Part shown: piece after piece, positions 8,784 through 32,167 of the stretch
How positions within the stretch are numbered: position 1 is the first letter of the stretch
Layout: every line of letters starts with the position of its first letter
From: Candidatus Woesearchaeota archaeon
GTDB taxonomy: Archaea; Nanobdellota; Nanobdellia; Woesearchaeales; UBA10216
Assembly: GCA_016180195.1 (NCBI GenBank)
Contig: JACPBS010000014.1
Span: forward strand, 7,208-39,470
Length of the DNA stretch: 32,263 nucleotides
Reading direction: 5' to 3'
Notes under the pieces: model-generated
What the model was told of the DNA's origin: nothing
Seen by the model: the letters and a program-made list of their open reading frames with translations, nothing else
Database searches by the model: none
Translations under genes and position numbers: made by a program

Positions 8784-9178
8784 CAAGACAGGACACCAGA
8801 TGGGGAATAGCGCATATCTTCAGCAGCTACAACAATACAATAATACACATCACAGATATAACCGGAACAGAAACAATGAGCAGGGCTTCGGGAGGAATGG
8901 TGGTAAAGTCCGACAGGATGGAAAGCTCCCCAACAGCGGCAATGGCAGCAGCCAAGAAGGCAGCTGAGGCAGCAATGGAAAAAGGAATATCAGGCATACA
9001 CGTCAAGATCAAGGCGCCAGGCGGCCACAATGGCCCCAACAATCCAGGGCCAGGAGCACAGGCAGCTGTCAGGGCGTTGTCAAGAATGGGACTTAAGATA
9101 GGCATAATCGAGGATGTCACACCAATACCTCATGACGGATGCAGGAAAAAAGGCGGAAAAAGGGGCAGGAGGGTTTAA
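8780..9178 (+). CDS. rpsK: 30S ribosomal protein S11 (uS11)
   Basis: 132 residues, standard length. S11 forms part of the platform near the mRNA exit. Hallmarks are [19 protein letters not shown] near the N-terminus, [20 protein letters not shown], and the C-terminal [20 protein letters not shown]. The start overlaps the rpsD stop (ATGA), and rpoD follows after 3 nt. Confidence 0.96.
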
Positions 9179-9181
9179 ATC

Positions 9182-9973
9182 ATGGAAATAGAACTTGTAG
9201 AGTATGACAAGAAGTCGAACAAGCTAGTTTTCATACTTAAAGACGCCGACCCTAGCATAGCTAATGCGTTAAGACGAATCGCAGTTGATGAGGTTCCTGT
9301 GATGGCAATTGAGGACGTAGAGATAAGGAAAAACAGTTCTGTGCTTTATGACGAGATGATAGCGCACAGGCTCGGACTTGTCCCTTTGAAAACAGACCTT
9401 GAAAGCTACAGCCTGCCAGCAGAATGTAAATGCGGCGGGGCAGGGTGCGCAAGATGCCAGGTTAAGATGACAATCGAATCTGACGAGGTAGGGGTAGTAT
9501 ATTCCGAAGGACTCAAATCAAAAGACCCAAAAATAAAACCAGTCTTTGCAAAAACACCCATTGTCAAGCTCTCAAAAGGGCAAAAGCTCGAAATAGAGGC
9601 AACTGCCATTCTTGGCACGGGAAAGGAACATGCAAAGTGGATCCCCGGGCTCGTTTATTACAAAAAATATCCCACACTGAAAATGGTTCATGAGATAAAG
9701 GAACAGAAACTTACCGAGATATTCCCAAAAGTTTTCGAAATGAAAGCAGGCAAGATAACAATCAATGAGACTGAATTCATAAAATCACACTTGACAGACT
9801 CTATAGAAGAGGTTACCGAAGGAGCTGTCAAGGTCGAAGATGACGAAAACAGGTTCGTGTTTTTCGTCGAATCATGGGGCCAGCTTGAAAGCAAGGAAAT
9901 AATGGAAACCGCAATAAGCATTTTTGAGCAAAAGCTGGCAAACTTCCAGAAGGAGCTCAGCAAGAAACAATAA
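9182..9973 (+). CDS. rpoD: RNA polymerase subunit D (Rpo3)
   Basis: 263 residues. Subunit D pairs with L to form the assembly platform of archaeal RNA polymerase (Rpb3/alpha homologue). The N-terminal alpha motif is LKDADPSIANALRRIAVDEV with the RLGLVPLKTD segment at about 63-72. Cysteines C82-x-C84-x4-C89-x2-C92 resemble the zinc loop of eukaryotic Rpb3. I see no further cysteines, so the [4Fe-4S] ferredoxin-like site of some archaeal D subunits seems absent. It lies 3 nt after rpsK, in the conserved archaeal order. Confidence 0.95.
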   Translation: MEIELVEYDKKSNKLVFILKDADPSIANALRRIAVDEVPVMAIEDVEIRKNSSVLYDEMIAHRLGLVPLKTDLESYSLPAECKCGGAGCARCQVKMTIESDEVGVVYSEGLKSKDPKIKPVFAKTPIVKLSKGQKLEIEATAILGTGKEHAKWIPGLVYYKKYPTLKMVHEIKEQKLTEIFPKVFEMKAGKITINETEFIKSHLTDSIEEVTEGAVKVEDDENRFVFFVESWGQLESKEIMETAISIFEQKLANFQKELSKKQ

Positions 9974-9986
9974 TCATGCTTAAAGT

Positions 9987-10102
9987 GCGGGGGTGGCAGA
10001 GCCTGGCCAAATGCGCAATTTCATGCGATAACCGCGTATGAAGCTTAAGGTTGAGGGCCTTGTCCCTTAGTGGGTGCGCGAGTTCGAATCTCGTCCCCCG
10101 CA
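9987..10102 (+). tRNA. tRNA-Leu(GAG) with a 30-nt intron
   Basis: The acceptor stem pairs GCGGGGG (9987-9993) with CCCCCGC (10095-10101), followed by an A discriminator; CCA is not encoded. The T-arm is GCGAG-TTCGAAT-CTCGT. A class II variable arm has CCC-TTAGT-GGG. The anticodon loop is TTGAGGG with anticodon GAG at 10053-10055. The anticodon stem CAAGG/CCTTG forms only if about 30 nt (10019-10048) are removed between positions 29 and 30. A bulge-helix-bulge with bulges AAT and AAG and inner helix TTCAT/ATGAA supports this cut. The mature tRNA would be 86 nt. It sits between rpoD and rpl18e. Confidence 0.88.
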
Positions 10103-10143
10103 TCAAAGGATAAAATGAATCAAGAACTTTTATTATTTTACAA

Positions 10144-10503
10144 ATGAGAACCGGACCAATGAACGAGCAATTGAAGCAGCTCATAGATGAGCTGAAGAAA
10201 AAGGCATACAGCGACAACGCCATGCTCTGGAAAAGAATAGCATTAGACCTGGAAAAGCCATCCAGGCAAAGAAGATCTGTTAACCTCTCCAGGATAAACA
10301 GGCATACGAATGACGGCGAAACAATAATTGTTCCCGGAAAGGTATTGAGTTCAGGAGAATTGGACAAGAAGATAACGATCGCAGCCTGGCAGTTTTCCAA
10401 AGATGCCTTTGCAAAAATAATGAAGTCAGAATCAAAAGCAGTCACGATCTCAGACCTTATGAGGCAAAACCCGGAAGGGAAGAATGTGAGGATAATAGGA
10501 TGA
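10144..10503 (+). CDS. rpl18e: 50S ribosomal protein L18e (eL18)
   Basis: 119 residues, as usual for archaeal L18e. The core includes LWKRIALDLEKPSRQRRSVN, SRINRHTNDGETIIVPGKVL and ITIAAWQFSKDAFAKI, typical of this L15/L18e-fold protein of the large subunit. I keep the start at 10144 because MRTGPMNEQLKQLI resembles the RTGPTN-type N-terminus of relatives. However, a TATA-like TTTTATTATTTTAC at 10126-10139 would suit a start at 10162 better. It overlaps rplM by 4 nt. Confidence 0.92.
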   Translation: MRTGPMNEQLKQLIDELKKKAYSDNAMLWKRIALDLEKPSRQRRSVNLSRINRHTNDGETIIVPGKVLSSGELDKKITIAAWQFSKDAFAKIMKSESKAVTISDLMRQNPEGKNVRIIG

Positions 10504-10910
10504 TAATAGATGCTTCAAACCTGATACTTGGAAGGATGGCAAGCTTCGCCGCAAAAAAAGCATTATCCGGCGAAGAAATCATAGTGATAAATTGCGAGAA
10601 GGCAGTCATAACAGGCAGGAAAAACAGCATCCTTGCCCGGTACAGGCTATTGATGGATATAGGCCAGCCAACAAAAGGACCTTTCATCCCGAGAAGACCA
10701 GACCTTCTAGTCAGGAGGGTCATTAGAGGGATGCTGCCAAGGAAAAGAGCAAGGGGAAGGGAAGCATACAAAAAAGTTAAATGCTACATGGAAATGCCTC
10801 CTGAAATAAAGCAGGACTCAGTTCAAACAATAAGCTCGGCAGACATAAACTCAAGATCAACATCCAAATATGTAACAGTCAAGGAACTTTGCAGGTTGAT
10901 AAGAAAATGA
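10500..10910 (+). CDS. rplM: 50S ribosomal protein L13 (uL13)
   Basis: 136 residues, typical of archaeal L13. It is an early-assembling large-subunit protein. Recognisable segments are IIDASNLILGRMASFAAKKA at the N-terminus, INCEKAVITGRK, and the GPFIPRRPDLLVRRVIRGML region where archaeal L13 contacts rRNA. The start overlaps the rpl18e stop, and the stop overlaps the rpsI start; both overlaps are ATGA, so translation is probably coupled along the block. Confidence 0.94.
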   Translation: MIIDASNLILGRMASFAAKKALSGEEIIVINCEKAVITGRKNSILARYRLLMDIGQPTKGPFIPRRPDLLVRRVIRGMLPRKRARGREAYKKVKCYMEMPPEIKQDSVQTISSADINSRSTSKYVTVKELCRLIRK

Positions 10911-11311
10911 GCAAGCCAATAAACACGTCAGGAAAAAGGAAGAAAGCCATCGCAAGAGCAGTCCTGAAAGCAGGAACTGGAATCGTAAAGGTAAACAACA
11001 TACTCATAGACAATTATGAGCCGATGCTGGCTAGAATGAAGATAATGGAGCCGCTGACATTAGCGGATACTTACGCCCCGAAAGTTGACATAAATGTAAT
11101 AGTATCAGGCGGTGGCATATTCAGCCAGGCAGAGGCTGTAAGGCTCACAATAGCAAGGGCACTGGTCGAGTTCTCAAAGGACAAAAAGCTCGAGAAGGAA
11201 TTCCTTGAATATGACAGGCATATGCTGGTTGCAGACGTAAGGCAAAGGGAAGACAGGAAACCGAATTCTGCCGGGAAGGCCAGATCGAAAGTGCAAAAAT
11301 CGTATAGATAG
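10907..11311 (+). CDS. rpsI: 30S ribosomal protein S9 (uS9)
   Basis: 134 residues with the start chosen at 10907, where ATGA overlaps the rplM stop; an in-frame ATG at 10889 lies inside rplM and would add six unlikely residues. S9 contacts the P-site tRNA through its C-terminal tail. Hallmarks are SGKRKKAIARAVLKAGTGIV at the N-terminus, VSGGGIFSQAEAVRLTIARA in the centre, and a basic tail ending RSKVQKSYR, here slightly different from the common KxQKRYR. It is the last gene before the inserted 11.3-12.5 kb region. Confidence 0.95.
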   Translation: MSKPINTSGKRKKAIARAVLKAGTGIVKVNNILIDNYEPMLARMKIMEPLTLADTYAPKVDINVIVSGGGIFSQAEAVRLTIARALVEFSKDKKLEKEFLEYDRHMLVADVRQREDRKPNSAGKARSKVQKSYR

Positions 11312-11398
11312 GAGAAAGTTAATTATTGGAAGGGCTGATAAGGGAACACAACTAATCTCTCATTAATCGAAGCCAGGACCTGTTGCTCCTTTGAAGAT

Positions 11399-11772
11399 TT
11401 AGTCGTAAGTCAATCCATTATGTCTGATTATTCGGTTATACGCATTGATGTGCGCTTTCAAAAAAGCGAAATCAAGATCATTATGTCTTCCCCTACCAAT
11501 ATATGTTTTCCCTTGAAAACTAACTTTAGCTGTCGAGACGGGCACTCCTTTGGACGTGTTAAGATATATTCCAGTTATATCGGCATTTAAGCCCATCTCA
11601 GAAGCCAGACTTTGTAAAGCATACATAGTTGCTGCCACTCCACCTATTCCCTCCCCACCTACTATTATGTCCCGACTTCCAACCCTTACTTCCAGATCGG
11701 CCCTGCACTCTTCCCTTCCTGCTGTTTTGAAATGTTTTATGTGTATAATAAAACCCGATCTTTCCCGTTCAT
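11399..11772 (-). pseudogene. LeuA-type regulatory domain, probable frameshift
   Basis: The intact stretch (11399-11638, 79 residues from the first ATG) reads GKTYIGRGRHNDLDFAFLKA, then HINAYNRII. This resembles the C-terminal regulatory domain of 2-isopropylmalate/citramalate synthases (pattern GxxYxGRGxxxDixeASxxAylnAiNr). The frame stays open and domain-like upstream (ADLEVRVGSRDIIVGGEGIG) to about 11735 but has no ATG, GTG or TTG there. The only good start, ATG at 11770-11772 with AAGGA 11 nt upstream and a TATA box at 11816-11827, is in the neighbouring frame. Loss of one base between 11735 and 11770 explains this. No synthase catalytic domain is present. It could be a free-standing regulatory domain damaged by one indel, a sequencing error, or a decaying fragment. 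Confidence 0.5.
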
Positions 11773-11815
11773 TTATATTTTTTTCCTTGAAATGCCGTTT
11801 AAGTCTTATAGATAG

Positions 11816-11827
11816 GAATATATTTAA
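11816..11827 (-). promoter_or_regulatory. TATA box for the LeuA-like domain
   Basis: On the minus strand TTAAATATATTC precedes the proposed ATG at 11772 by about 49 nt, leaving a leader of roughly 24 nt that contains AAGGA. Confidence 0.35.
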
Positions 11828-11902
11828 CGGCGATAAAACAGGTTTTATTTATGGGCAGGTCAATTTCTGTAAAGCCAAGTTGTTTGGAACAATCAGAGTC
11901 AG

Positions 11903-12154
11903 CTATTTGTAAACATCTCTCCTGTTAGCAACTTCTATGACAAAAACAATAAGCCTGCCATCCTGAATGTCTAGAATTGCCCGATAGTCACCAATCCTTA
12001 ATCTGAAATATGGGCTTCCTACAAGTTTCTTGACAAACGAATAAGGTTTTATCCGTATTCTTTCAAGCGTGGAAATGACCCTTATCTGAACGCCTCTTTC
12101 CAACTTATATAGCTGTTTCTCTGCTGTTGTTGAGAATTCAATATCGTACATCAT
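11903..12154 (-). CDS. RelE/ParE-family toxin
   Basis: 83 residues, the normal size for a RelE-type toxin. RelE proteins cleave mRNA in the ribosomal A site. The pattern EFSTTAEKQLYKLERGVQIR, then a small hydrophobic strand, then FRLRIGDYRAILDI and VIEVANRRDVYK is characteristic of this family, with the usual C-terminal Arg-rich strand and terminal Tyr. It begins 1 nt after the stop of the antitoxin gene, in the standard antitoxin-toxin order. The pair sits inside an otherwise conserved ribosomal/RNA polymerase cluster. Confidence 0.88.
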   Translation of the reverse strand: MMYDIEFSTTAEKQLYKLERGVQIRVISTLERIRIKPYSFVKKLVGSPYFRLRIGDYRAILDIQDGRLIVFVIEVANRRDVYK

Positions 12155-12155
12155 A

Positions 12156-12374
12156 TCAAAGTTTTAATTGTTTCTTTATCTGCTCAAGCGTTTTTGTCTT
12201 GCCTTCTTCAATCTCCTTTCTTGATTGCTCTATGTGTCTTTTCGTTTCTTCAGACAGCTCCTTGCTGTCTTCCAGCAAGTCCCAAATAATGTCTTCATAG
12301 CTCTCTTTATCATACATCTTTCTTATTTTCAACTGCTCAACCAGTTTTTCGCTAACTTGAATAGTTGTTGTCAT
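12156..12374 (-). CDS. RelB-like antitoxin
   Basis: 72 residues from the ATG at 12374. That start is preferred because TTATAT at 12399-12404 lies about 27 nt upstream, and the protein then begins MTTTIQVSEKLVEQLKIRK as archaeal antitoxins of this kind do; starts at 12383 or 12425 are possible but less likely. The N-terminal beta strand and helix would bind DNA as a dimer. The highly charged C-terminal helix (SKELSEETKRHIEQSRKEIE onward) would wrap the toxin. RelB-family antitoxins usually repress their own promoter. Confidence 0.78.
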   Translation of the reverse strand: MTTTIQVSEKLVEQLKIRKMYDKESYEDIIWDLLEDSKELSEETKRHIEQSRKEIEEGKTKTLEQIKKQLKL

Positions 12375-12427
12375 AGTAATCATATAATTCGCTATAGAAT
12401 ATAAGGCTTTGGTTTTTAGCCACAAAA

Positions 12428-12439
12428 GGTTTATAAACC
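12428..12439. promoter_or_regulatory. Palindromic TATA box upstream of rpoN
   Basis: GGTTTATAAACC is a perfect 12-bp palindrome. It is centred about 33 nt before the rpoN ATG and about 60 nt from the relB start on the other strand. It gives rpoN its own promoter after the insertion, and could also serve as an operator for the antitoxin. Confidence 0.45.
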
Positions 12440-12466
12440 AGCCTGAAATCCCTAAATAGTTCTGAA

Positions 12467-12664
12467 ATGATAATCCCTATCAGATGCTGGAGTTGCGGAA
12501 AGCCAATTGCACATCTCAAAGAAGAGTATGATGAAAGAGTGGCCAAAGGCGAGACCAGGAAAAAGATACTTGATGACCTAGGAATGGAAAGGTACTGCTG
12601 CAGGGCAATGTTCCTGGGGCATGTTGACCTGATTGAAAAAATAACGCAGTTCAAAAAGTTTTGA
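12467..12664 (+). CDS. rpoN: RNA polymerase subunit N (Rpo10)
   Basis: 65 residues, the usual size of this Rpb10 homologue. It binds the D/L platform. The zinc site is complete: C7-x2-C10 near the N-terminus (PIRCWSCGKPI) and the atypical adjacent pair C44-C45 (ERYCCRAMF). The archaeal neighbour is normally rpsI; here it is separated by about 1.15 kb. The protein ends in HVDLIEKITQFKKF as in relatives. Confidence 0.96.
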   Translation: MIIPIRCWSCGKPIAHLKEEYDERVAKGETRKKILDDLGMERYCCRAMFLGHVDLIEKITQFKKF

Positions 12665-12733
12665 GCATTTTCTTGATGTGGAACGTTTAGTTCGGTTCAG
12701 GTGCTCCATGTCCTGAATGTTTTTCGAAACAAA

Positions 12734-12746
12734 ATTTAAATATAAT
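12734..12746 (+). promoter_or_regulatory. TATA box for leuS
   Basis: ATTTAAATATAAT is centred about 31 nt before the ATG at 12771. It lies inside the longer open frame beginning at 12717, which argues that translation starts at 12771. Confidence 0.55.
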
Positions 12747-12770
12747 GAGACAGCTTATCCGAAAACAAAA

Positions 12771-15626
12771 ATGCTCGACTTCAACAGGATTGCTGAAAAG
12801 TGGCAGAAGAAGTGGGAGGAATCAAAGGTTTTCCAATCTGAAGCTGATGAACGGCCGAAATTCTATGTTGCCATCGTTTACCCTTACATGAGCGGGCTCC
12901 TGCACCTGGGACACTTATTCACGTACACGTTTTCTGAAGTTGCCTTGAGGTACAAAAAGATGAGAGGCTATAACGTCCTTGCCAAATACGGGTACCACTG
13001 CACCGGGACCCCGATAATAGCAGCAGCCCAAAGGGTCAAGGAAGGAGAACCCGGCCAAATAGAGACCCTGAAAAAGATGGGCATAAATGAGGAGGAAATA
13101 CCTAAATTTGCAGACCCAGAGTACTGGTGCGAATACTTCCCAAAGGAAACCCTAAGGGATGCGAAAAACATGGGCTTTGCAATAGATGAAAGATATGCAT
13201 TCAGAACAACACACCTAAACCAGCCATACGACAGCTTCATAACATGGCAATTCAACAGGCTTAAAGAAAAAGGCTATGTCAAGCAGGGAAGGCACCCTGT
13301 GGTATGGTGCCCGAAGGACAATGTCCCTGTCGGCGATCATGACAGGGCTGAGGGCGAGGGCGAGACGCCAAAAGATTTCATTTGGGCCAAGTTCAGGCTA
13401 AAGGATTCTGACCTTATCCTAATGGCAGGCACAACCAGGCCCGACGCATTGCTTGGGCAGACCCATTTGTGGATAGATCCGAATTCAACATATTCCATAA
13501 TACGAGTAGACGGAGAGAAATGGGTTGTTGGCAAGGAAGCTGTTAAAAAGATAGAGCAACAATACAAAAAACCGGGGCTTATTGGAGAGATCAGCTCAAG
13601 CGATCTTATAGGAAAATGGACAAAAGGGCCGATGGTGGATTATGATGCGTACATAGTCCCGGCAGGCTTTATTGAAGCTGATGTAGGATCCGGGATAGTT
13701 TATTCAGCGCTTGAAGACCCGGTTGATTTAATGGAGATGCAAAGCATACAGGCTAACCCTGATTTTGTCAAAAAGCACAAACTAGACGCCGAAGTCGTAT
13801 CAAAGCTAAAGCCAATCTCGATCATAAACATCCCCGACCTTGGAGAAAACCTTGGCCAAGAAATGCTCGACAAATACAAAGTCAGATCACCAAGAGACAA
13901 ACAGCTTCTTGAAGAAGCAAAAGGCGAATTAAACAGGGTTGTTTACAGGAAAGGAATCCTGAAACAAAATTGCGGAAAATACGCGGGCCTCACAGTCCCA
14001 GAAGCTCAGGCAAAAATCAAGAAAGACCTGATCGAATCAAAGGATGCAGTGATGTTTTACGAACTGACTGGAAAAGTGAAATGCAGGTGCCTTACTGACT
14101 GCATAGTAAAGATGGTAGAGGACCAGTGGTTCATAGAATACAACGATCCCGGTTGGAAAAAGAAGGCGCATGAATGCCTTGCCACGATGAAGATATACCC
14201 TGAAGTGGTAAGAAAGCAGTTTGACTATGTAATAGACTGGCTTGACCACTGGGCATGCACAAGGGAGTATGGCCTCGGGACAAAGCTGCCCTGGGACAAC
14301 AAGTGGGTGATTGAATCGCTATCTGATTCAACAATCCAGATGGCGTATGGAACTGTTTCAAAATATCTGCAGAACCCCGGCGAATACGGGTTCAAAACAG
14401 ATAAACTAAATGATGAATTCTTTGATTATGTTTTTTTGGGAAAAGGTAATGTAAAATCTGTTGAGAATTCAACAGGCATACCCACAGGAATGATAGAAAC
14501 GATGAAAAAAGACTTCGAATACTGGTATCCATTCGACTTCAGAAACTCCGCAAAGGACCTTGTACAGAACCACCTTGCGTTCTGCATATTCAACCACGTT
14601 GCACTCTTTCCCGAGAAACACTGGCCACAAGCGTTTGCCATAAATGGGAGGATAATGGTAAACAACGAAAAGATGTCAAAATCCAAGGGCAACTTCTTCA
14701 CGATGAGAGAACTATACACCAAGCACGGACCTGACATAGTAAGGCTTGCCGCAGCAAATGCCGGAGAAGGGGTTGACGATGCGAACTATGACATGGAATT
14801 CCTGGAAACAGCGAAAAGGAAATTATCAGAACACCACTCATTCATAAATCGAAGCTATGGGAAGGGAAGGAAAGAGGAGCTTGTAATAGATAGGTGGCTT
14901 GAAAGCAAGATAAACGAGAACATCAAAAAGGCAACGGAATCGATGGATAACATGATGTTCAAATCAGGCATATTCCATTGCTTCCTTGAAATGCAGAGAA
15001 ACATGAAATGGTACATAAAAAGAACAAATGGATCGCCTAATGAAAGAATTGTAAAACTGTATTGCGAATCAACAGTAACGATGCTGGCCCCATTCTCCCC
15101 GCACTTCAGCGAGGAATGCTGGGAACTTATGGGAAAAAAAGGCTTCGTTTCGAACTCCCCCTGGCCAAATGCCAATGCAGATTCAATAAAACCCGAGCTC
15201 GACCAAGGCGAGGAACTCGTATCAGGCATTCTTTCAGACATAAGGGCGGTGATCAAACTAACAAAAATAGAGAAGCCGAAAGAGATCAAGATAATTATAA
15301 GCCAGTCATGGAAATATGAGCTTTTTGGCCAAATACGCAAAATAATGGAATCAGGCAAAGAGCCGAAAATAAAGGAAATTCTGGCAGATATGAAATTCAT
15401 ACAACACGCACAGGAAATCCAGAAATTCCTCCCAAAGATGATTTCATCCAGGAAGCTTCCTGAAGCAGCCATTTCCAAAGAGCATGAAAAGAAATCGCTG
15501 GATGAGGCATTAAGCTTCATGGAAAACGAACTGAATTCCCCAATAAGGATCGAGGATGCTGACTCAAGCACCGAACAAAAATCAAAACAGGCAATCCCGG
15601 GAAAGCCCGCAATCCTAATAAAATGA
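12771..15626 (+). CDS. leuS: Leucyl-tRNA synthetase, archaeal type
   Basis: 951 residues from the ATG at 12771. It charges tRNA-Leu, one copy of which lies 2.7 kb upstream. The class I signature is PYMSGLLHLGHL with HLGH at 45-48, and the second signature KMSKS is at 634-638 within NEKMSKSKGN. The editing CP1 domain occupies the region in between, with AGTTRPDALLGQTHLWIDP corresponding to its threonine-rich editing pocket. A C-terminal helical anticodon-binding domain and a long archaeal-type tail follow. An earlier ATG at 12717 overlaps the promoter and is not favoured. The stop overlaps the NAD kinase start by 4 nt. Confidence 0.95.
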   Translation: MLDFNRIAEKWQKKWEESKVFQSEADERPKFYVAIVYPYMSGLLHLGHLFTYTFSEVALRYKKMRGYNVLAKYGYHCTGTPIIAAAQRVKEGEPGQIETLKKMGINEEEIPKFADPEYWCEYFPKETLRDAKNMGFAIDERYAFRTTHLNQPYDSFITWQFNRLKEKGYVKQGRHPVVWCPKDNVPVGDHDRAEGEGETPKDFIWAKFRLKDSDLILMAGTTRPDALLGQTHLWIDPNSTYSIIRVDGEKWVVGKEAVKKIEQQYKKPGLIGEISSSDLIGKWTKGPMVDYDAYIVPAGFIEADVGSGIVYSALEDPVDLMEMQSIQANPDFVKKHKLDAEVVSKLKPISIINIPDLGENLGQEMLDKYKVRSPRDKQLLEEAKGELNRVVYRKGILKQNCGKYAGLTVPEAQAKIKKDLIESKDAVMFYELTGKVKCRCLTDCIVKMVEDQWFIEYNDPGWKKKAHECLATMKIYPEVVRKQFDYVIDWLDHWACTREYGLGTKLPWDNKWVIESLSDSTIQMAYGTVSKYLQNPGEYGFKTDKLNDEFFDYVFLGKGNVKSVENSTGIPTGMIETMKKDFEYWYPFDFRNSAKDLVQNHLAFCIFNHVALFPEKHWPQAFAINGRIMVNNEKMSKSKGNFFTMRELYTKHGPDIVRLAAANAGEGVDDANYDMEFLETAKRKLSEHHSFINRSYGKGRKEELVIDRWLESKINENIKKATESMDNMMFKSGIFHCFLEMQRNMKWYIKRTNGSPNERIVKLYCESTVTMLAPFSPHFSEECWELMGKKGFVSNSPWPNANADSIKPELDQGEELVSGILSDIRAVIKLTKIEKPKEIKIIISQSWKYELFGQIRKIMESGKEPKIKEILADMKFIQHAQEIQKFLPKMISSRKLPEAAISKEHEKKSLDEALSFMENELNSPIRIEDADSSTEQKSKQAIPGKPAILIK

Positions 15627-20353: not shown

Positions 20354-20767
20354 ATGCCAGGCCATACATCACCTGTTGAACTTGCAATAGATGTTGCCAC
20401 CGACGCCCTTATTCGAGTTGGGAGATATTATCAGGATCATAAAAAAGAACAGGGCCCAGTCCCGCTCATGGAAATGTTCAAAGGGGAATTATCTGACTGC
20501 TACAGATTTCTTGGTGAAAAAGGCTCAACATTAGATGAAGGAAAAATTGGTGATTTAGCATTTCTTTTGCGTGGCGCGATTGACGGGATTGAGGACAGCC
20601 TTACATATGCCATCGGATGCACTGAACGAGGGGAGCTATGGATGGGGACTGAACAGGGAATGGCTGCAACCCGACTTTTTGATGCACTATCCCGATATAA
20701 CCTGATGAAAAGAACAGAAACAGAACGAGCTATCTTGGAAACAGAAAAAGCTCTTCTTTCTCCCTGA
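20354..20767 (+). CDS. Hypothetical helical protein, 137 aa
   Basis: I do not recognise a family. The sequence is almost entirely predicted helix, with segments ELAIDVATDALIRVGRYYQD, IGDLAFLLRGAIDGIEDSLT and MAATRLFDALSRYNLMKRTE. It has no membrane segment or signal peptide. A well-placed TATA box supports expression. Its last 38 nt overlap the 3' end of the convergent herA gene, so the two messages would be complementary there. It could be a small adaptor or DNA-associated protein; nothing in the sequence decides this. Confidence 0.68.
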   Translation: MPGHTSPVELAIDVATDALIRVGRYYQDHKKEQGPVPLMEMFKGELSDCYRFLGEKGSTLDEGKIGDLAFLLRGAIDGIEDSLTYAIGCTERGELWMGTEQGMAATRLFDALSRYNLMKRTETERAILETEKALLSP

Positions 20768-22043
20768 TTGCTGTAGGGCTGCTTCCTCCGTGCCACGTCA
20801 TCTTCGGCCTAATCTGGGAAGGATACATCCTCTCATTTGTGTCATCGAAGATAAGTGCAGAACCCTTAACATCAGGAAGCTCCGCAAGCAGCTTATCAAG
20901 GTTTTCCCGCATGTAAGTCTGCATCAGCATCCCAAGAGAATCAATATCTATCTTTGACGTAAGCCTGTGAGCGATTATTATATCTGACTGTGTCATGACA
21001 TCTGTATGGATCTGGCCTGGCTGCTGGGTTGCAAGAATGAGGCTTATCCCGGGCTGCCTACCTTCCCGGAGAAGCGTGAGAAGGGGCTCAGTGGCTGAAG
21101 TCCTTCCCTTAAGCGGGAGAAACTCGTGCGCCTCATCCACCATTATCCAGATCAAGGGGACTTTCAGCTTATCCACCTTCTCCTCCTCGATGGTCATGGC
21201 GGCCTTAATCTTCCTGTACTCCTCCATCCGCCTCACCGACATCCTTTCCTCGAAAAGCTTTTTGGAAACCAGCCCTATGACCAGCGCACGTATGCTGTCT
21301 GCACCCGAAAGGGCAGAATAGCAGCTGACATCAAGAACGGTAACTTGTCCGCCCAAAACCAGATCTGAGAACTTAGTTCCCTTATCATCGAAGAGACCCC
21401 AATTATTTGCATTCATGAAAAGATTTTCAGCAGCATCCTTAACGTGTTGGTCCGTGTTTTGATTTTTTTTTATCTCTCCAACAATATCACTGATTGCATA
21501 TTCTGTGCCTGCAAGCTTATCCAAAGCCCTTGATATTGCGATTGAAACAGGATCATTCACACCCAAACCGAAGGTCATAAGCCAGTCATTAACCTCCAGC
21601 TCAGATGTCTTGATCGAGAACGGGAAATCACTAATGCCCTTCTCCCTGAACTGCTCATAATGGCCTGCGGGAGTGTAAACCTGGATGTTCAGCTTAGAAT
21701 AAGCTATGTTCCATTTCTTCAAAAGCTCTGCATCCTCTCTGTTCTCAAACTTCATTGTCCAGAAAATACCCATCGTATCAAGAAGGACGATGCTCAGGTT
21801 TTCCCTTATGTCCGGGTCGAGGCACATCATTCCCTCTGCAATTGCCGAAGCCGAATAGCTTTTTCCAGATCCCCTCTTGCCCACCACGAACACCACGTGA
21901 GGCCTGACAGCATCCATGTAAATATTGTTGGAAAGGGATGTGGCCTGCCCCATCTTCACATAATGCTTTCCAAGAAGGAATGTTCCCTTGTCACCGAACT
22001 TTCTTTTGTCAGTCTCGTTCCTGCCCACCACTATCTCGTACAT
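20730..22043 (-). CDS. herA: HerA-family ATPase
   Basis: 437 residues. HerA is a hexameric DNA translocase of the FtsK/HerA group that works with the nuclease NurA in end resection. Walker A is VVGKRGSGKS with GKRGSGKS at 55-62. Walker B is LIWIMVDEAHE with DE at 303-304. The downstream LREGRQPGISLILATQQPGQ contains the arginine and Gln-rich sensor typical of HerA. The N-terminal ~45 residues form a short HAS-barrel-like segment. No nurA or mre11-rad50 is beside it, so a role outside repair is possible. It diverges from the translin gene. Confidence 0.87.
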   Translation of the reverse strand: MYEIVVGRNETDKRKFGDKGTFLLGKHYVKMGQATSLSNNIYMDAVRPHVVFVVGKRGSGKSYSASAIAEGMMCLDPDIRENLSIVLLDTMGIFWTMKFENREDAELLKKWNIAYSKLNIQVYTPAGHYEQFREKGISDFPFSIKTSELEVNDWLMTFGLGVNDPVSIAISRALDKLAGTEYAISDIVGEIKKNQNTDQHVKDAAENLFMNANNWGLFDDKGTKFSDLVLGGQVTVLDVSCYSALSGADSIRALVIGLVSKKLFEERMSVRRMEEYRKIKAAMTIEEEKVDKLKVPLIWIMVDEAHEFLPLKGRTSATEPLLTLLREGRQPGISLILATQQPGQIHTDVMTQSDIIIAHRLTSKIDIDSLGMLMQTYMRENLDKLLAELPDVKGSALIFDDTNERMYPSQIRPKMTWHGGSSPTAIREKEELFLFPR

Positions 22044-25147: not shown

Positions 25148-26203
25148 TTACCAGCTAATCCTATACCTCAACAAAGCCCCGATGCCGCCCAATGCATCCA
25201 GCTTCTTGCCTGGCTCGTTTTCCGAATTCACGATATACACATCGCCTTTTGACTTATCCGTGTCTTTCATTATTTTCTCTATTGCAGCAAACCTGTCCTC
25301 CTGCCGCGCCTTCAAAATCAATTTGTCTGTCACGATAAGCAGCTTTACAGCCCCGGCATCAGCTGCCTGCCCCACCTCCTTTTTTCCATAAGCCGCAAGC
25401 CCTGCTTTTGATATCTCCACAAACAATTGCTCCACAAGACGTTCCTCATTGGCAGTCCTTTCCTGTTTCAGCACTTCCTTGAGCTCAGCACGCTTCAATG
25501 TCTCATTTATCCCGCCCTTCACGCTGCTGCAGGTAGCAACAACTATTTTCGATTTCAGATCATCGTTACCCAGCTCTTTCAGCAGCTCCTCTTTCCAGAA
25601 TGACGGGCTTGACAAAATAATGTGCTCCACTTTGTATTTCTTATCATGCTCCTTCAACAGCCCTATTATTTCCCTGTAGAAGTTTTTTGTCTCAGTCTTC
25701 TGCGCCTTCTTTTCAACCTGCCCTTTAATTTCCGCAAGCACCTTATACCCCTGTTCCTGAAGGACTGCAATTATTGCCTCCTCCCTGTCGAAAACGCAGA
25801 TTATCGTATGGAAGCTCTTTTTTGATGCCGCCTCCCTTAACCTGTCAAGCTGATAATTGAACCACTTATCCTTGACTATAGTGGCTGCGGTGCCTTCCTC
25901 AAAGTTAAACGTATGGTGGGCTTTCGGAACATCGTCAGGAGCCTCTATTATCATCCCGCTGGCCCTGAGGATGTTTGAGTACTTGTGAAACTCAACCTTC
26001 TCAGCCCTAAGGGCAACCCAAATCGGCCTTTTTGCAGCTTCAGAAGCCCTTTCATCCTTGCTTTTTACCTGCACCTTCCTAAAAGTCCTTCCTTTAATCA
26101 AGTCTCCAGGCTCAATTACCTGGCTCAGGTACCAAAGATCGTCCAGAGTTTGAACCTGGACTGTCACTTCTCCCTTTTTCAGATTGGATTTTAGTATCTT
26201 CAT
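25148..26203 (-). CDS. pelA: mRNA surveillance protein Pelota (Dom34)
   Basis: 351 residues, standard for archaeal Pelota. It rescues stalled ribosomes with aEF1A and ABCE1. The N-terminal Sm-like domain begins MKILKSNLKKGEVTVQVQTL then DDLWYLSQVIEPGDLI. The central eRF1-like domain shows the FDREEAIIAVL strand and lacks the GGQ of release factors, as expected. The C-terminal domain includes LLIVTDKLI and ends GGIGALLRYRISW. Its promoter is shared with the divergent surface-protein gene. Confidence 0.95.
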   Translation of the reverse strand: MKILKSNLKKGEVTVQVQTLDDLWYLSQVIEPGDLIKGRTFRKVQVKSKDERASEAAKRPIWVALRAEKVEFHKYSNILRASGMIIEAPDDVPKAHHTFNFEEGTAATIVKDKWFNYQLDRLREAASKKSFHTIICVFDREEAIIAVLQEQGYKVLAEIKGQVEKKAQKTETKNFYREIIGLLKEHDKKYKVEHIILSSPSFWKEELLKELGNDDLKSKIVVATCSSVKGGINETLKRAELKEVLKQERTANEERLVEQLFVEISKAGLAAYGKKEVGQAADAGAVKLLIVTDKLILKARQEDRFAAIEKIMKDTDKSKGDVYIVNSENEPGKKLDALGGIGALLRYRISW

Positions 26204-26251: not shown

Positions 26252-27418
26252 ATGTATCAGACCAAAGGCCAGAGTGCAGGAGGTGCCTCTGCCCTCATCG
26301 CCACAATTGTTGGCCTTATACTGCTTTACATCATGTTTCTGCCACCCGAGGACAGGGCAGTACTTCTTGACCAGAATTTAACCAGTCCAGGCGTAATCAA
26401 GGGTGTTGGCGAAGACTCGAGGGTGCTGCTCCGCGAGTTCCCAGGAACCCTCATCAAGGCAAGACAGGAGGATTTTGAGCATAAAATAAACTCATTCAAC
26501 CTTTACGAGAAGAGCGAGGATACTGTTATAAAATCAATACCCAACATATATGTCGAATCGAAGAGAGGAAATGAAAGAAAAAAAACCATGCCATTATCCG
26601 TAAACCCCGTGGCCACTTCAAATGTGCAGCTAAGCTTCTCAGCAGTACAACATGAAGGCAGGCTAATAATAAAGGTGAATGACGATGAGGTGTACAACAA
26701 CAAGCCCTCATCACAAGTTGTAATCAGACTTGACAAGCTCCAGAATGAGAACGTGATAGAATTCATGTCAGAGCCCATAGACTTCCAGTTCTGGAAGAAG
26801 AACTATCACGAATTGTCCGATGTTAAGGTTACGGGCACAGTAAAAAATACTGAAAACCTCGATTCCAGGCAAACATTCGTGGTCAGCGGCGAAGAGGCAG
26901 GAAACATCGAAACTGCAAAATTCAGCTATTTTGTTGACTGCAAGGTAAATGATGCAGGCTTACTCAGCGTTTACATCAATGAAAACATCATAAGCTCAAA
27001 CGTTCCAGACTGCGGCAGCTTTGTAAGGTTCGACCTAGATCCTTCAGTGATAATAAGGGGGTCAAACAGCATAAGGTTTTCAGCAACAAAAGGAACCTTT
27101 CTAATAGACCAGCTTTCGATAAAGACAAACCTGATCGACCCGATCGAGCCCATTTACTTTTTCGATGTCAACTCCACAAAATACTCGTGGATAGCCAATG
27201 ACAAGTTCGATGCAGTACTCAGGATGAAATTTGTAGATGACAAACAAGAAAAAGTAGCTGAGCTGAACATAAACAACCGAAGGACATTCATGGATGCAAA
27301 AAGAGCATCCAATTTCTCAAAGGACATAAGCCAGTTCATTGTTGAGGGGAATAATTTCATAAAAATAATACCTGAAAAAACCCTCAACCTTGTACAGGTC
27401 ACAATAAGCCTGGAATAG
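26252..27418 (+). CDS. Membrane-anchored surface protein with beta repeats
   Basis: 388 residues, family not recognised. An N-terminal transmembrane helix follows a short polar start (about 12-33, ALIATIVGLILLYIMFLP); the preceding KGQSAGGAS resembles the leader of archaeal type IV pilin-like proteins, but a cleavage site is not certain. The rest is beta-rich and extracytoplasmic. Three modules look related: LIIKVNDDEVYNN...VIRLDKL...VIEFMSE, LLSVYINENIISS...VRFDLDPSVI...SIRFSA, and VAELNINNRRTF...ISQFIVEGNNFIKIIPE. A leaderless start is supported by the symmetric TATA box. It heads a four-gene envelope cluster. Confidence 0.82.
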   Translation: MYQTKGQSAGGASALIATIVGLILLYIMFLPPEDRAVLLDQNLTSPGVIKGVGEDSRVLLREFPGTLIKARQEDFEHKINSFNLYEKSEDTVIKSIPNIYVESKRGNERKKTMPLSVNPVATSNVQLSFSAVQHEGRLIIKVNDDEVYNNKPSSQVVIRLDKLQNENVIEFMSEPIDFQFWKKNYHELSDVKVTGTVKNTENLDSRQTFVVSGEEAGNIETAKFSYFVDCKVNDAGLLSVYINENIISSNVPDCGSFVRFDLDPSVIIRGSNSIRFSATKGTFLIDQLSIKTNLIDPIEPIYFFDVNSTKYSWIANDKFDAVLRMKFVDDKQEKVAELNINNRRTFMDAKRASNFSKDISQFIVEGNNFIKIIPEKTLNLVQVTISLE

Positions 27419-27428
27419 GCTAGAAAGA

Positions 27429-27440
27429 TTTATAATTTAT
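27429..27440 (+). promoter_or_regulatory. TATA box and leader for the 911-aa envelope gene
   Basis: TTTATAATTTAT lies about 38 nt before the ATG at 27473. This leaves a short leader that contains GAGGG at 27463-27467, a Shine-Dalgarno sequence at 5 nt spacing. Unlike most genes here, this one appears to use a ribosome-binding site. Confidence 0.45.
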
Positions 27441-27472
27441 AGAGCGACAAAGAGTCAAAAAAGAGGGTTCTT

Positions 27473-30208
27473 ATGGCTGATGATGAAGAAGAGGGTGTCT
27501 TAAAGAGGGCTAGAGCCCGCTTGGGAACTTACGGGAAAGACGCTTTTTCAGCCATGAAGAAAGGCGCTGAATTAAGTGCAGCTGGAGCAGTGACAGGCAT
27601 CAAAGGTTCGGGTGCAGTAGCTGCGAAAAGCCTTTCGGCCATAAAAAAAGGGGCTGAAATAAGCGCTGCCGGAGCTGCTTCCGGGGCCAGGGGCACGGGC
27701 AGCGTTGCTGTCAAAGGCCTTGATTTTCTGAAACCCCGAATGCAGTCACCATTCATATTCTTCCTTCTAATAATCACTTACCAGCTCTTCGAGATACTTA
27801 CGAATTACGAAATACCCCTGGCAATGAGGCTGTTCATCTACATAGTATTTTTTGTCTTTGCCTGGCTCGCAATCAAGATTGATGTACAGCAGGCAGGATT
27901 CTTCTTTATCCTTTCATTCATCACCCCGTACGCGTGGCAGTACATCCCGAAGACAGGAGGCATATCAGAATATGCAGGCCCCATCATGTTCATACCCGCA
28001 CTATCATTATCGCTGTGGCTCGGTATATCGTCCAGCTATGAAGGACTGGCAGAACTCATAAGGATTTCATTAGTAATATTCCTCATATTCATCATAGCAT
28101 GGCCTAATGTACAGGCAATACTGAAATCAACAGGGTTCAGCGAATATGTTCCTAATGTTGATCCCAAGATGGGATGGAAAGGCATACAGAACGGCATAGA
28201 CAAGACAACAAAAACGTTCAGCCAGATCCCAGAGGCAATAAACAAGGCATTTCAAAGCCAGATAATAGTAGCAACAGGAGACTACTACACTGGAAGAGTT
28301 GATGAAAACAGCAAAAGGCCTGTAGGGGTATACATCGAAAAGCTAGAGGCAGCAGACCCAGAATACTATGAAGGGCAGAAAGTAGTTGTGCTTGCAGACA
28401 TCAAAGCCCAAACACTGAACTCCGAGATAAAGCTAAGTCCCAATTGCTGGTCAGACAGGAAGAGAAGGGAGGAAGTAGATGGAATGGTAATCCCCCCAAA
28501 GCTGACAATAGAAACCTACGGAATACAGTCTTTCGACTGCAAATTTGCTGCAAACAGCCTGAAATCAGGAACCCACACAATGACAGCTGCCGCAACATTC
28601 AGCTTCGAAACCATGGCATACCTGAAAACATACCTCATGGACAAGGACAAGATAAGAAGCTTAAGATCAATCGAGAAAGACCCGCTCGAATTCTATAAAA
28701 TACAGGAAACAAAGCCAGTTGCTGTTTACACCAACGGCCCGGTATCAATAGGGATGGAAGTAAAAAGCGCACTTCCAATAGCCCTTAAGCTAGGAGAGGT
28801 AGACCCATTCTCCCTTGGAATAACCATAGGAAACAACTGGCAGGGAAAAATAGAAAGCATATCCGAACTTAAAATAAGCCTTCCTCAAGGCATGGAGATT
28901 GACACAAGCTCCTGCTCCCACATATTCAACTCAGAAGGCCTAAAAGATAATTATAATGTCTATTCGCTGGATGTTGCAGCAGAAAGATTGGTCAACCCGA
29001 GAGCCTTCACGAACATAAAGAACCATCAGAGCCTAAGATGCTATATCGATGTCAAGGATGAATCTATATCAAGCCTCCTTGGAAAAACCCCTGTATCGGT
29101 CAGGTTCTTCAGGGCTGAGGCCAAGTATGACTATACTGTAGAAAAATCAATACCTCTCGAGATAAAATCAGAGGAAAGGACAAGTGTGGAAAAAGGGACT
29201 TGCGGGAGCAAACTGGCTGACATGGCAAGGAGGGGTCTTGGAAGGCCTGGAGCGGAAACAGGGTCATGGAGCGCGGAAAAAGAACCTGAATCAGACGAAC
29301 CAACAAGCCCTGGAGGATATATTGGCTGGGCGTTCAGCAGGTATGCGCATGTATACAAGGACAGCGAAATGGGCCTAACAGACAGCATAAACGAGCAGGC
29401 AGCATCAGGAAAGCTTGTTGATGGGGAAATTAATTCCAAAACCACACCGAACCTAGACTCTCTAAAAAATGGAGACATAGTCTTCTTCTGCGGAAAATAT
29501 GACTACTTAACAGGACAACTGGCTGAATGCGAAAACGAAGAAGCTGGCCACGCAGCAATTTACACTGGAAACGGACGCATAATCCATGCTGCAACAAAAG
29601 TTAAAGAAGAAAGCATGAGGCAATATGAATCCAACTATATCGGGGCAAGAAGGATGTGCAAGGAAGAGCAAAAAAATGACAAGCCCGACCCGGTAGATGT
29701 AAAAAGCACAGTGATTGCGTTTGCAGACGAATATGAAATACCCCGCGATGTTGCGCTTGGCGTAGCGGATGTTGAGGGAGGGCTGCAACATTATGCAGCC
29801 AACACATACACACCTGTAGGGTGGTGTGATGGCAAGGTGAAGTGCGGCGATCTTGATTCCTGCAGGACAGGCTCCATAGGGATGATGCAGATAAACAGCT
29901 GCGCACACCCAACATGCTTCAGCGATGAAGGAGTAATCTACGACCCGAAAAGCGGGGACATGTGCAAGGGAGCGCATGCATGCTCAGGAACAGATGCAAG
30001 AAACATAAGATGCAACATAGAGGCATCAATGAGGCTCCTGAGATCAGGATATGACCAGGGCCAGAGAAATCCTTATCCCGGATGCCATTGCGGAGGCAAA
30101 TACACTGGATGGGACTACGCGATAAAGAGCTATAACGGATGCGTATGCGACAAGAACCCGAACTATGTTTCAGAAGTAAGAAGAAGGGGGAAAGCGCTAA
30201 CAGAATGA
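27473..30208 (+). CDS. Polytopic envelope protein with NlpC/P60 and lysozyme-like domains
   Basis: 911 residues. Residues 25-82 are two 29-residue Ala/Gly-rich repeats. About five transmembrane helices follow (roughly 93-109, 119-133, 141-157, 168-186, 196-212), then a long extracytoplasmic part. Residues ~580-730 resemble an NlpC/P60 domain: NGDIVFFCGKYD, GHAAIYTGNGRIIHA. The place of the catalytic Cys (usually DCSG) reads PGGYIGWAF, so it may be inactive. Residues ~745-895 resemble a lytic transglycosylase: VADVEGGL with E768, then GSIGMMQINS. That domain has 12 cysteines, as expected for disulfides outside the cell. The next gene overlaps by ATGA. The order of domains recalls CwlT-like conjugation hydrolases; the role here is unknown. 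Confidence 0.85.
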   Translation: MADDEEEGVLKRARARLGTYGKDAFSAMKKGAELSAAGAVTGIKGSGAVAAKSLSAIKKGAEISAAGAASGARGTGSVAVKGLDFLKPRMQSPFIFFLLIITYQLFEILTNYEIPLAMRLFIYIVFFVFAWLAIKIDVQQAGFFFILSFITPYAWQYIPKTGGISEYAGPIMFIPALSLSLWLGISSSYEGLAELIRISLVIFLIFIIAWPNVQAILKSTGFSEYVPNVDPKMGWKGIQNGIDKTTKTFSQIPEAINKAFQSQIIVATGDYYTGRVDENSKRPVGVYIEKLEAADPEYYEGQKVVVLADIKAQTLNSEIKLSPNCWSDRKRREEVDGMVIPPKLTIETYGIQSFDCKFAANSLKSGTHTMTAAATFSFETMAYLKTYLMDKDKIRSLRSIEKDPLEFYKIQETKPVAVYTNGPVSIGMEVKSALPIALKLGEVDPFSLGITIGNNWQGKIESISELKISLPQGMEIDTSSCSHIFNSEGLKDNYNVYSLDVAAERLVNPRAFTNIKNHQSLRCYIDVKDESISSLLGKTPVSVRFFRAEAKYDYTVEKSIPLEIKSEERTSVEKGTCGSKLADMARRGLGRPGAETGSWSAEKEPESDEPTSPGGYIGWAFSRYAHVYKDSEMGLTDSINEQAASGKLVDGEINSKTTPNLDSLKNGDIVFFCGKYDYLTGQLAECENEEAGHAAIYTGNGRIIHAATKVKEESMRQYESNYIGARRMCKEEQKNDKPDPVDVKSTVIAFADEYEIPRDVALGVADVEGGLQHYAANTYTPVGWCDGKVKCGDLDSCRTGSIGMMQINSCAHPTCFSDEGVIYDPKSGDMCKGAHACSGTDARNIRCNIEASMRLLRSGYDQGQRNPYPGCHCGGKYTGWDYAIKSYNGCVCDKNPNYVSEVRRRGKALTE
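27545..27718 (+). repeat. Two in-frame 87-nt repeats in the envelope gene
   Basis: Copies at 27545-27631 and 27632-27718 encode FSAMKKGAELSAAGAV... and LSAIKKGAEISAAGAA..., each 29 residues with KKGAE-SAAGA and GSGAVA/GTGSVA in register. They precede the first membrane helix, so they are probably cytoplasmic amphipathic helices. Confidence 0.75.
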
Positions 30209-31200
30209 AAATGAGGCTATTGCTTGTTTTTGCGGCAATTGTGATGATCACAGGGTGCAGCAAGATACCTGGAGGGAAAAGCGGAGGAGAGATCCCATTC
30301 AGCTACGATGCAATACATACAGGAAGCGAAGGGGTGAAGCTGGAATTCATATCCAACGCACCTCCAAATGAATTACTGGCGCCGTCAAAAGACGGAAACG
30401 GGTATCCGTTCAGGCTAGGGGTCAAAGCCACCAACAAAGGAGCTACAAAGGTTGAGAACGGCTACATAACGGTAACTGCAGAAGACGACTACCTTGATCT
30501 TGACAACGGCTTCACGAAGACCTATACGATAGACGGAAAAAACTTCTTCAATCCACAGGGCGAATCAGAAGCAATCATATTCAACGGCATCACGAAGAAA
30601 TTCAAGGAAGGCCAGTCAGACAAGTACAGGACAACTGTCCTTGCCACAACGTGCTACAAGTACCTGACAGAGGTCAAAAAGGAGATATGCATAGACACCG
30701 ACATACTGGACCTGAAAAAGAAGCAGAAGATATGCACGACTAAAGATATCTCACTGAGCAACCAAGGAGGGCCGGTGGCTGTTACAAAGATAGAAACCAA
30801 GCTATTCCCCGAAGGAGGAAGCGAAGGCATAGCATACGTAAAGCCGCAATTTGTAATCACCATAAGGAATGTTGGTGACGGGCAAATAGTCAACCCGGAC
30901 CTTGACATGGCATCAGTCTGCTCGTCAGAGCTGATAGCAGACAAGAACCAGGACATGTTCAAGAAAGCATGGAACATAGTAAAGATCAGAGCCAGACTTT
31001 CAGACAAGGAACTGGCATGCTTCCCCAACCCGCTCAAAATAAGGGAAGGAGACGACATAATGAGATGCAGCATGAGGGAAGATGAAAAAATAGACGCAAA
31101 TCTCCCAACCTACAACTCGCCGCTCGTTGTATCCATCGAATACGGATACACGTCAACCATATCCAAAGAAGTGATGGTAACCAAAGACCTAGACTACTAG
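30205..31200 (+). CDS. Predicted lipoprotein, first of two paralogues
   Basis: 331 residues from ATG 30205, which overlaps the previous stop (ATGA); an earlier in-frame ATG at 30139 is inside the upstream gene and would mask the signal peptide. The start MKMRLLLVFAAIVMITGCSK is a lipoprotein signal with lipobox ITGC and Cys18 as the anchor. The body is beta-rich. FRLGVKATNKGATKVENGYI resembles a CARDB/COG1361-type adhesion-like sandwich, and there are paired cysteines in VLATTCYKYL, EICIDTD and KICTTKD. The next gene is a clear paralogue (KYRTTVLATTCYKY against TYKTTLMATACYSY). It should be tethered outside the membrane, near the 911-residue protein. Confidence 0.85.
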   Translation: MKMRLLLVFAAIVMITGCSKIPGGKSGGEIPFSYDAIHTGSEGVKLEFISNAPPNELLAPSKDGNGYPFRLGVKATNKGATKVENGYITVTAEDDYLDLDNGFTKTYTIDGKNFFNPQGESEAIIFNGITKKFKEGQSDKYRTTVLATTCYKYLTEVKKEICIDTDILDLKKKQKICTTKDISLSNQGGPVAVTKIETKLFPEGGSEGIAYVKPQFVITIRNVGDGQIVNPDLDMASVCSSELIADKNQDMFKKAWNIVKIRARLSDKELACFPNPLKIREGDDIMRCSMREDEKIDANLPTYNSPLVVSIEYGYTSTISKEVMVTKDLDY

Positions 31201-31203
31201 GCA

Positions 31204-31216
31204 AATATTTAAATAA
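31204..31216 (+). promoter_or_regulatory. TATA box for the second lipoprotein
   Basis: AATATTTAAATAA is centred about 28 nt before the ATG at 31238. The second lipoprotein can therefore be made separately from the first. Confidence 0.5.
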
Positions 31217-31237
31217 CCCATTCAATAGGCTTGGAAA

Positions 31238-32167
31238 ATGAAAAAAGAGGCTTTTTTGCTGCTGCTTGTTTTTTTTTTGATTGTGGGATGTAGCCAGCAA
31301 ACAAACAAAGGCAATGATAATTTCAGGACCGGAACAAAAGGCCTGGTAATGAGCTTCATTCCAGGATCCCCCCCTGACAGGTTTCTAGGTGACGGAAAGC
31401 TTGATGTTGCAGTCCAGGTCAAGAATGCGGGAACAACCAGCATTGAGAACAGCAATGGATTCGGAGGAAACATCTACCTCACAGGATTTGACAGGAACAT
31501 AATCGCATTTGACAAAGAAGCGGATGGCATCAACCTGCTTGGAGGCCGAAACCTTTATGACCCTGAAGGGGAGATTGATATCAAGGAATTCCAGGGTAAC
31601 GTGAAGCTTGCTGACGGCGTAGACACATACAAAACCACGCTAATGGCAACTGCATGCTACTCCTATGAGACCACCGCAGCACCCATGGTGTGCATTGACC
31701 CGGATCCTTTCGGATCAAAGACAAAGCAAAAGGCATGCACCACGCAAAATGTCGGCCTTTCAGGAGGCCAGGGAGCACCCATCTCAGTCACGAAGGTTGA
31801 GCTAAACCCCTCAAGCGAAAAACTAAGGTTTACGATACATTTCTCAAACTCGGGCGGAGGCATGGTATACGACATGAACAGCCAGAACTGCAATCCATAC
31901 TCCACAGGCCTATCATCAAAAGAAAAGAATGTGGTGAGCGTTGAAGAGGTAAGGATAGGAAGCATAGACATCACAGGCACCTGCAAGCCCCTCATAGATA
32001 GGAAATTTACACTAATCAACAACGCCAGAAACATCATGTGCGAACTGGATATACAGTCAAGCGGAATCCCTCAAAGCGCATTCTCATCCCCACTGCTTAT
32101 ACGGGTAAGGTACGGATATACAACTTCCATATCAAAGAGCATAGAAATAATAAGGCCGCCCAAGTAG
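31238..32167 (+). CDS. Predicted lipoprotein, second of two paralogues
   Basis: 309 residues. MKKEAFLLLLVFFLIVGCSQ is a lipoprotein signal with the lipobox IVGC and anchor Cys18. The domain pattern follows the upstream paralogue: LDVAVQVKNAGTTSIENSNG, TTLMATACYSYE, PMVCIDPD, KQKACTTQNVGLS, PISVTKVEL and a final SPLLIRVRYGYTTSISKSIE. The upstream copy has SPLVVSIEYGYTSTISKEV at the same place. This points to tandem duplication and divergence. It is longer in the middle loops than typical CARDB domains. Function is unknown; a surface or host-contact role fits the context. Confidence 0.85.
   Translation: MKKEAFLLLLVFFLIVGCSQQTNKGNDNFRTGTKGLVMSFIPGSPPDRFLGDGKLDVAVQVKNAGTTSIENSNGFGGNIYLTGFDRNIIAFDKEADGINLLGGRNLYDPEGEIDIKEFQGNVKLADGVDTYKTTLMATACYSYETTAAPMVCIDPDPFGSKTKQKACTTQNVGLSGGQGAPISVTKVELNPSSEKLRFTIHFSNSGGGMVYDMNSQNCNPYSTGLSSKEKNVVSVEEVRIGSIDITGTCKPLIDRKFTLINNARNIMCELDIQSSGIPQSAFSSPLLIRVRYGYTTSISKSIEIIRPPK

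Follow-up and report, generated by a model that had tools for sequence, protein, structure and literature searches.

How uncultured Woesearchaeota live, and whether some of them depend on bacteria rather than on archaea, is an open question. The window analysed here, a stretch of 32,263 nucleotides from a woesearchaeal genome of 1.23 Mb that is 97% complete, ends where its contig (C22) ends on the right, and its last four genes all encode exported or membrane proteins, one of which carries two domains resembling murein hydrolases. What does an archaeon without murein do with such a set?

All four open reading frames are present on the plus strand where the initial annotation had placed them, at 26252-27418 (388 aa), 27473-30208 (911 aa), 30139-31200 and 31238-32167 (309 aa); only the start of the third needs amending, from 30139 to, most likely, 30205, where an ATGA overlaps the stop codon of the preceding gene and is followed by MKMRLLLVFAAIVMITGC, a typical lipobox. 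We call the four proteins F2, F0, F1a (30205-31200) and F1b. The descriptions first given of them also hold up: F2, a surface protein, spans the membrane once by a helix that comes after a short N-terminus, and has three 'NxIxF' beta repeats; F0, the central membrane protein, combines five modelled helices with matches to an NlpC/P60-like and an SLT/lysozyme-type domain; and F1a and F1b are paralogous lipoproteins. Divergently oriented ahead of F2 lies the gene for pelota (aPelota/Dom34; 25148-26203, minus strand; Pfam eRF1_1/2/3), a conserved neighbour that marks the locus.

The genes are found together elsewhere. We collected neighbourhoods from 91 other Woesearchaeales genomes, called open reading frames and sorted them by profiles: F2 lies directly upstream of F0 in 71 of 85 loci and an F1 gene downstream of F0 in 87 of 90, with median intergenic gaps of 51, -4 and 40 bases, the -4 belonging to the F0-F1 junction. 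Pelota is divergent and upstream of F2-F0 in 60 of 74 loci, and the small subunit of replication factor C (RFC-small) is convergent and downstream in 60 of 76. The order F2-F0-F1a-F1b(-F1c) is thus that of an operon conserved in Woesearchaeota and in the surrounding class. Three F1 copies follow F0 in 57 of 76 complete loci, so that what had been described as a four-gene cluster does belong together but is part of a longer operon, in which a third lipoprotein comes next in relatives. In the window the contig stops 96 bases past F1b, within the surviving part of the operon, and, judging by the relatives, the position-3 gene (F1c) would be expected beyond its end.

The F0 core profile is present in 280 of the 353 genomes of the order (149 of 180 when only high-quality genomes are considered) and in 78 of 188 genomes of a class-wide sample. 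A scan of named genomes returned 0 matches with a single-protein query and 40 loci with a closer alignment; almost all named relatives with the F0 core are Candidatus Woesearchaeota. Eighteen loci were sampled from other orders; there F0 is mostly 390-520 aa long with mostly one membrane helix, two copies of F1 are usual, and 10 of the 18 loci have F2 ahead of F0. We found no copy of the operon on plasmids, phages or viral contigs; the locus has a fixed place on the chromosome and is inherited vertically as part of the chromosomal equipment. A viral or plasmid origin was considered and set aside, with no relatives found there and PHROGs matches confined to the NlpC/P60 part.

Recurrent flanking genes in the neighbourhoods collected are pelota (probably outside the system functionally), RFC-small, a PRC-barrel gene, a TrmB-type regulator and a phenylalanyl-tRNA synthetase-like gene. 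In loci L038-L065 (families F5 and F7) we noted, adjoining RFC-small beside the operon, a PRC-barrel protein of about 87 aa and, in family f1, a large coiled-coil-like protein with no Pfam match. A HerA/DUF87-type ATPase of 437 aa (20730-22043 in the window) is found near the operon in the window's family and also in loci L048, L049 and L045; its position next to the operon is not order-wide. Note that two loci (L131, L139) carry a woesearchaeal operon on contigs labelled Methanosarcinales archaeon and Aminicenantes bacterium, which are probably binning or naming errors.

Are the successive F1 genes interchangeable copies or distinct components? In a FastTree phylogeny of 177 F1 proteins from three-copy loci, the label denoting position after F0 changes only 3 times, compared with at least 74 (mean 84) when labels were shuffled 20 times. 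The window copies group with positions 1 and 2, and the two F1 copies of other orders are positions 1 and 3 in 14 of 14 loci. It follows that every position already had a protein of its own when the orders diverged. Such locking is what would be expected of fixed parts of a single assembly. A lipobox pattern near the N-terminus is found in 203 of 233 Woesearchaeales F1 copies and in 33 of 37 others.

What F0 and F1 look like emerges from AlphaFold2 models. F1b (31238-32167) is predicted, with a mean pLDDT of 93.8, to consist of two Ig-like domains that both finish with a long strand. In F0 (27473-30208), a five-helix membrane bundle (residues 92-219; 27746-28129) is modelled with moderate confidence (pLDDT about 50-70) and is followed by an ectodomain of two Ig-like beta-sandwich domains (residues 270-570; 28280-29182), where pLDDT per block is about 80-96 over most of the span. 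The ectodomain contains four almost invariant cysteines (C325, C356, C481 and C523) and, in the models, has the strand order of F1b, with long strands at 366-390 and 541-565. Foldseek searches with F1b and the F0 ectodomain return Ig-rich structures such as integrin legs and the soluble domain of STT3 at low TM-scores, that is, generic Ig-like folds and no single known relative. The models thus show a tandem Ig-like fold common to F1 and the F0 ectodomain. Common descent is likely: the sequence comparison is suggestive (profile against profile, E 9e-4, probability 23%) and is backed by the common strand order and the Foldseek neighbours.

Profile searches with the F0 core found no Pfam, NCBIfam or PDB family, and the same searches with F0, F1 and F2 outside the tail described below gave no convincing one. 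F2 (26252-27418), whose alignment of 28 members has 12 invariant columns, matches Pfam GH2_N at 14.5 bits, below the cut-off, a weak hint of a GH2-type sugar-binding fold. Profile comparison gave no support for kinship of F2 to F0 or F1. Across the family the start of F2 (window 26252-26380) has K-K-[GA]-Q right before the membrane helix, like archaeal class III (type IV pilin-like) signal peptides.

The C-terminal end of F0 is where the murein-active domains lie. Defining a tail as at least 45 residues beyond the F0 core and scanning with Pfam at E 0.01, we found a tail in 64 of 92 F0 proteins. The domains recognised are SLT (23), glucosaminidase (2), NlpC/P60 (2), Amidase_2 (1), M23 (1) and M15 (1), the remaining tails being mainly fn3, PKD or Ig modules; two further Woesearchaeales loci add one more glucosaminidase and one more weak SLT. 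Weak single matches aside, all enzyme families recognised in F0 tails are murein-active. The six hydrolase families have unrelated folds and chemistry, and their common substrate is peptidoglycan. Counts on the F0 core tree are approximate, since it was built quickly and support is weak for many of its forks: F0 switches between having and lacking a hydrolase at least 16 times, and hydrolase type changes at least nine times. Two genomes of a single genus, for example, have an Amidase_2 and an NlpC/P60 tail, respectively. Whatever the tail, the genes that follow F0 are F1 lipoproteins, orthologous by position; in locus L041 the SLT domain is on the adjacent F1 and not on F0.

Are these tails working enzymes? 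The initial annotation had proposed NlpC/P60-like and lysozyme-like folds for the C-terminal domains, and profile matches bear this out, although the models of the two domains are poor (pLDDT 25-79). The first (about residues 576-731; 29198-29665) matches PF00877 at 27.4 bits against a cut-off of 23. It has SPGG (P613) in place of DCSG, so that the catalytic cysteine is absent, while His693 is kept; by comparison, the NlpC/P60 tail of locus L125 has an intact FDCSG. We therefore predict a pseudo-enzyme. The second domain (about residues 740-905; 29690-30187) scores only 16.2 bits on its own, below the Pfam cut-off of 21.3, but a profile built from F0 relatives matches solved lytic transglycosylases (9vi7, E 4.4e-7; MltC, 1.6e-5; Slt70, 1.2e-3). 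All 14 aligned SLT members match PF01464 at E up to 0.1, and the catalytic glutamate, GxMQ and YNG are invariant among them, the window included (Glu768, GxMQI and YNG), which predicts an active lytic transglycosylase. Going by motifs, then, the tails would be mostly intact enzymes with some pseudo-enzymes among them, and the window would hold one of each.

A membrane protein with several helices fused to NlpC/P60 and SLT domains recalls conjugation, in which wall hydrolases pair an NlpC/P60 with a lysozyme-like domain, and the initial annotation had drawn this analogy to CwlT/Orf14. It did not survive. Besides the missing cysteine, the recurrent genes flanking the operon are not transfer genes, and no VirB4-, VirD4- or relaxase-like neighbour was recognised in more than 100 loci. 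VirB4 (PF03135) occurs in only 1 of 59 related genomes although F0 is near universal, and the VirD4 profile (PF10412) gives matches of about 45 residues around the P-loop, at places unlinked to the operon. The F0 core fold is, moreover, Ig-like and not VirB6-like, and the operon's absence from the mobile elements searched also speaks against transfer. A DNA-transfer apparatus of the CwlT/Orf14-VirB1 type is extremely improbable. Such systems and F0 are alike in placing an NlpC/P60 and a lysozyme-like domain on a membrane protein; F0 differs in its five-helix Ig-domain core, in the dead NlpC/P60 domain of the window, in the other hydrolase families of its relatives and in having no conjugation genes nearby.

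Whose wall, then, would the tails act on? FtsW/RodA was found in 0 of 59 relatives compared with 10 of 14 controls, and because the archaea bearing the tails have no such wall themselves, the tails may be suggested to act on neighbouring bacteria. The other half of the original guess, a role in cell contact or host interaction, does fit, and the woesearchaeon is presumably host-dependent. We think it fairly probable that the operon encodes a membrane-anchored heteromeric contact complex of Nanoarchaeia-type archaea, which confronts neighbouring bacteria with exchangeable domains that cut or bind murein. F0 would anchor the complex in the membrane and display its two-Ig-domain ectodomain outwards; two or three F1 lipoproteins (F1a, F1b, F1c), of the same fold but not interchangeable, would probably assemble with it, as would F2. 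In Woesearchaeales F0 ends in the exchangeable tail, whose commonest form is a peptidoglycan hydrolase domain; this would cut or grip the bacterial wall when a bacterium is held close to the archaeal cell. The benefit might lie in attachment, feeding or killing.

At the same time, no hydrolase was recognised in about half of the F0 proteins sampled, nor in any of the eight scanned from other orders. Murein therefore cannot have been the ancestral purpose, and the ancestral role, common to the tail-less orders, must differ from murein action; partner-cell attachment and envelope scaffolding are candidates. More tentatively, and with the odds somewhat against it, F2-F0-F1 could be an undescribed, near-universal envelope machine of the class that was made into a contact weapon or feeding tool in Woesearchaeales by recruiting at least six murein hydrolase families. 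Two further observations count against the contact-complex reading. First, some tails have decayed: besides the NlpC/P60 domain of the window, the SLT tails of loci L074 and L079 have lost the catalytic glutamate, and it may be binding rather than cutting that matters. Second, the F0 tail is not the sole murein-active protein of these genomes.

Might the complex instead be a general envelope scaffold of the class, serving S-layer anchoring, secretion or cell shape, with tails that are former hydrolases now binding sugars or peptides? The tail-less core is conserved class-wide, Ig-like folds resemble adhesins as well as scaffold proteins, and the decayed active sites in some tails and the fn3, PKD and Ig modules in others would be at home in such a structure. 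However, the catalytic glutamate is kept in 23 of 23 clear SLT tails, the motifs of the Amidase_2 and M23 tails seem to be whole, and six unrelated folds with murein as their sole common substrate are not what binding of glycans in general would lead one to expect; we consider this account rather unlikely. We give still less credence to scavenging, in which the tails would digest the walls of dead bacteria outside the cell for food and leave living cells alone. Such archaea are nutritionally dependent, murein of dead cells has been suggested as an amino-acid source (PMC11537232), and identical enzymes would be required, but scavenging would be better served by released enzymes, and a membrane tether within a fixed heteromeric complex would be unexpected for it.

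That murein domains might be exclusive to F0 was rejected, SLT and M23 occurring elsewhere in the same genomes. SLT domains are present in 23 and M23 in 32 of 59 related genomes, mostly in proteins other than F0, shares far above the 5% of archaeal genomes quoted for hydrolases in PMC12352652. A second SLT protein, of 430 aa, is encoded in the genome of locus L044 (G000:C25, about 8669-15142 in the locus); its C-terminal SLT domain is 35% identical to that of F0. It sits in a row of about eight small proteins with one helix each, several of which start like pilins (KKG or RGQ before the helix), and the row is possibly a pilus-like cassette with a murein hydrolase at its tip.

A near-universal surface complex with interchangeable murein-active tips is a concrete candidate for the contact machinery of these archaea. 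Tail type offers a marker for each genome that can be compared with host or co-occurrence data, and the tails are soluble domains suited to a simple wall-digestion assay. In architecture F0 resembles polymorphic toxins of the CdiA and Rhs type, which join a constant N-terminal chassis to an exchangeable C-terminal effector, as F0 joins a constant N-terminal part to exchangeable C-terminal domains. It differs in that no immunity gene was recognised (none would be needed, because the archaeon has no murein), in having no secretion partner and in keeping its effector anchored in the membrane.

Closer still are proteins from the same lineages. Castelle 2021 (PMC8204110) and Vigneron 2022 (PMC9723730) report murein transglycosylase domains in Woesearchaeota and Pacearchaeota and suggest action on bacteria; the former describes large extracellular proteins with such a domain (fam00969), the latter GH23 genes. 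These share with F0 the lineages, an SLT domain on a surface protein and the suggested action on bacterial walls. In the available text of both papers they appear as a domain within a protein family, without the operon, the Ig-like core, the position-locked lipoproteins or the five replacement hydrolase families. F0 may be among the members of fam00969, the distinction drawn here being one of description and not of sequence. The accessible parts of a 2025 study (PMC12352652) report that archaeal peptidoglycan hydrolases kill bacteria, that modular hydrolases occur in nearly 5% of archaeal genomes and that homologues are prominent in Nanoarchaeota. Those hydrolases and F0 alike have archaeal murein-active domains with action on bacteria predicted or shown, whereas in F0 the domain forms the exchangeable tail within a membrane complex that is near universal. 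Literature searches on lipoproteins and on conserved DPANN clusters gave nothing informative, and the literature covered, supplementary tables excluded, contains no description of the operon, the F0 core or tail exchange. Set against these sources as far as they were accessible, woesearchaeal SLT proteins were known before, and what is new is the operon and the swapping of F0 tails.
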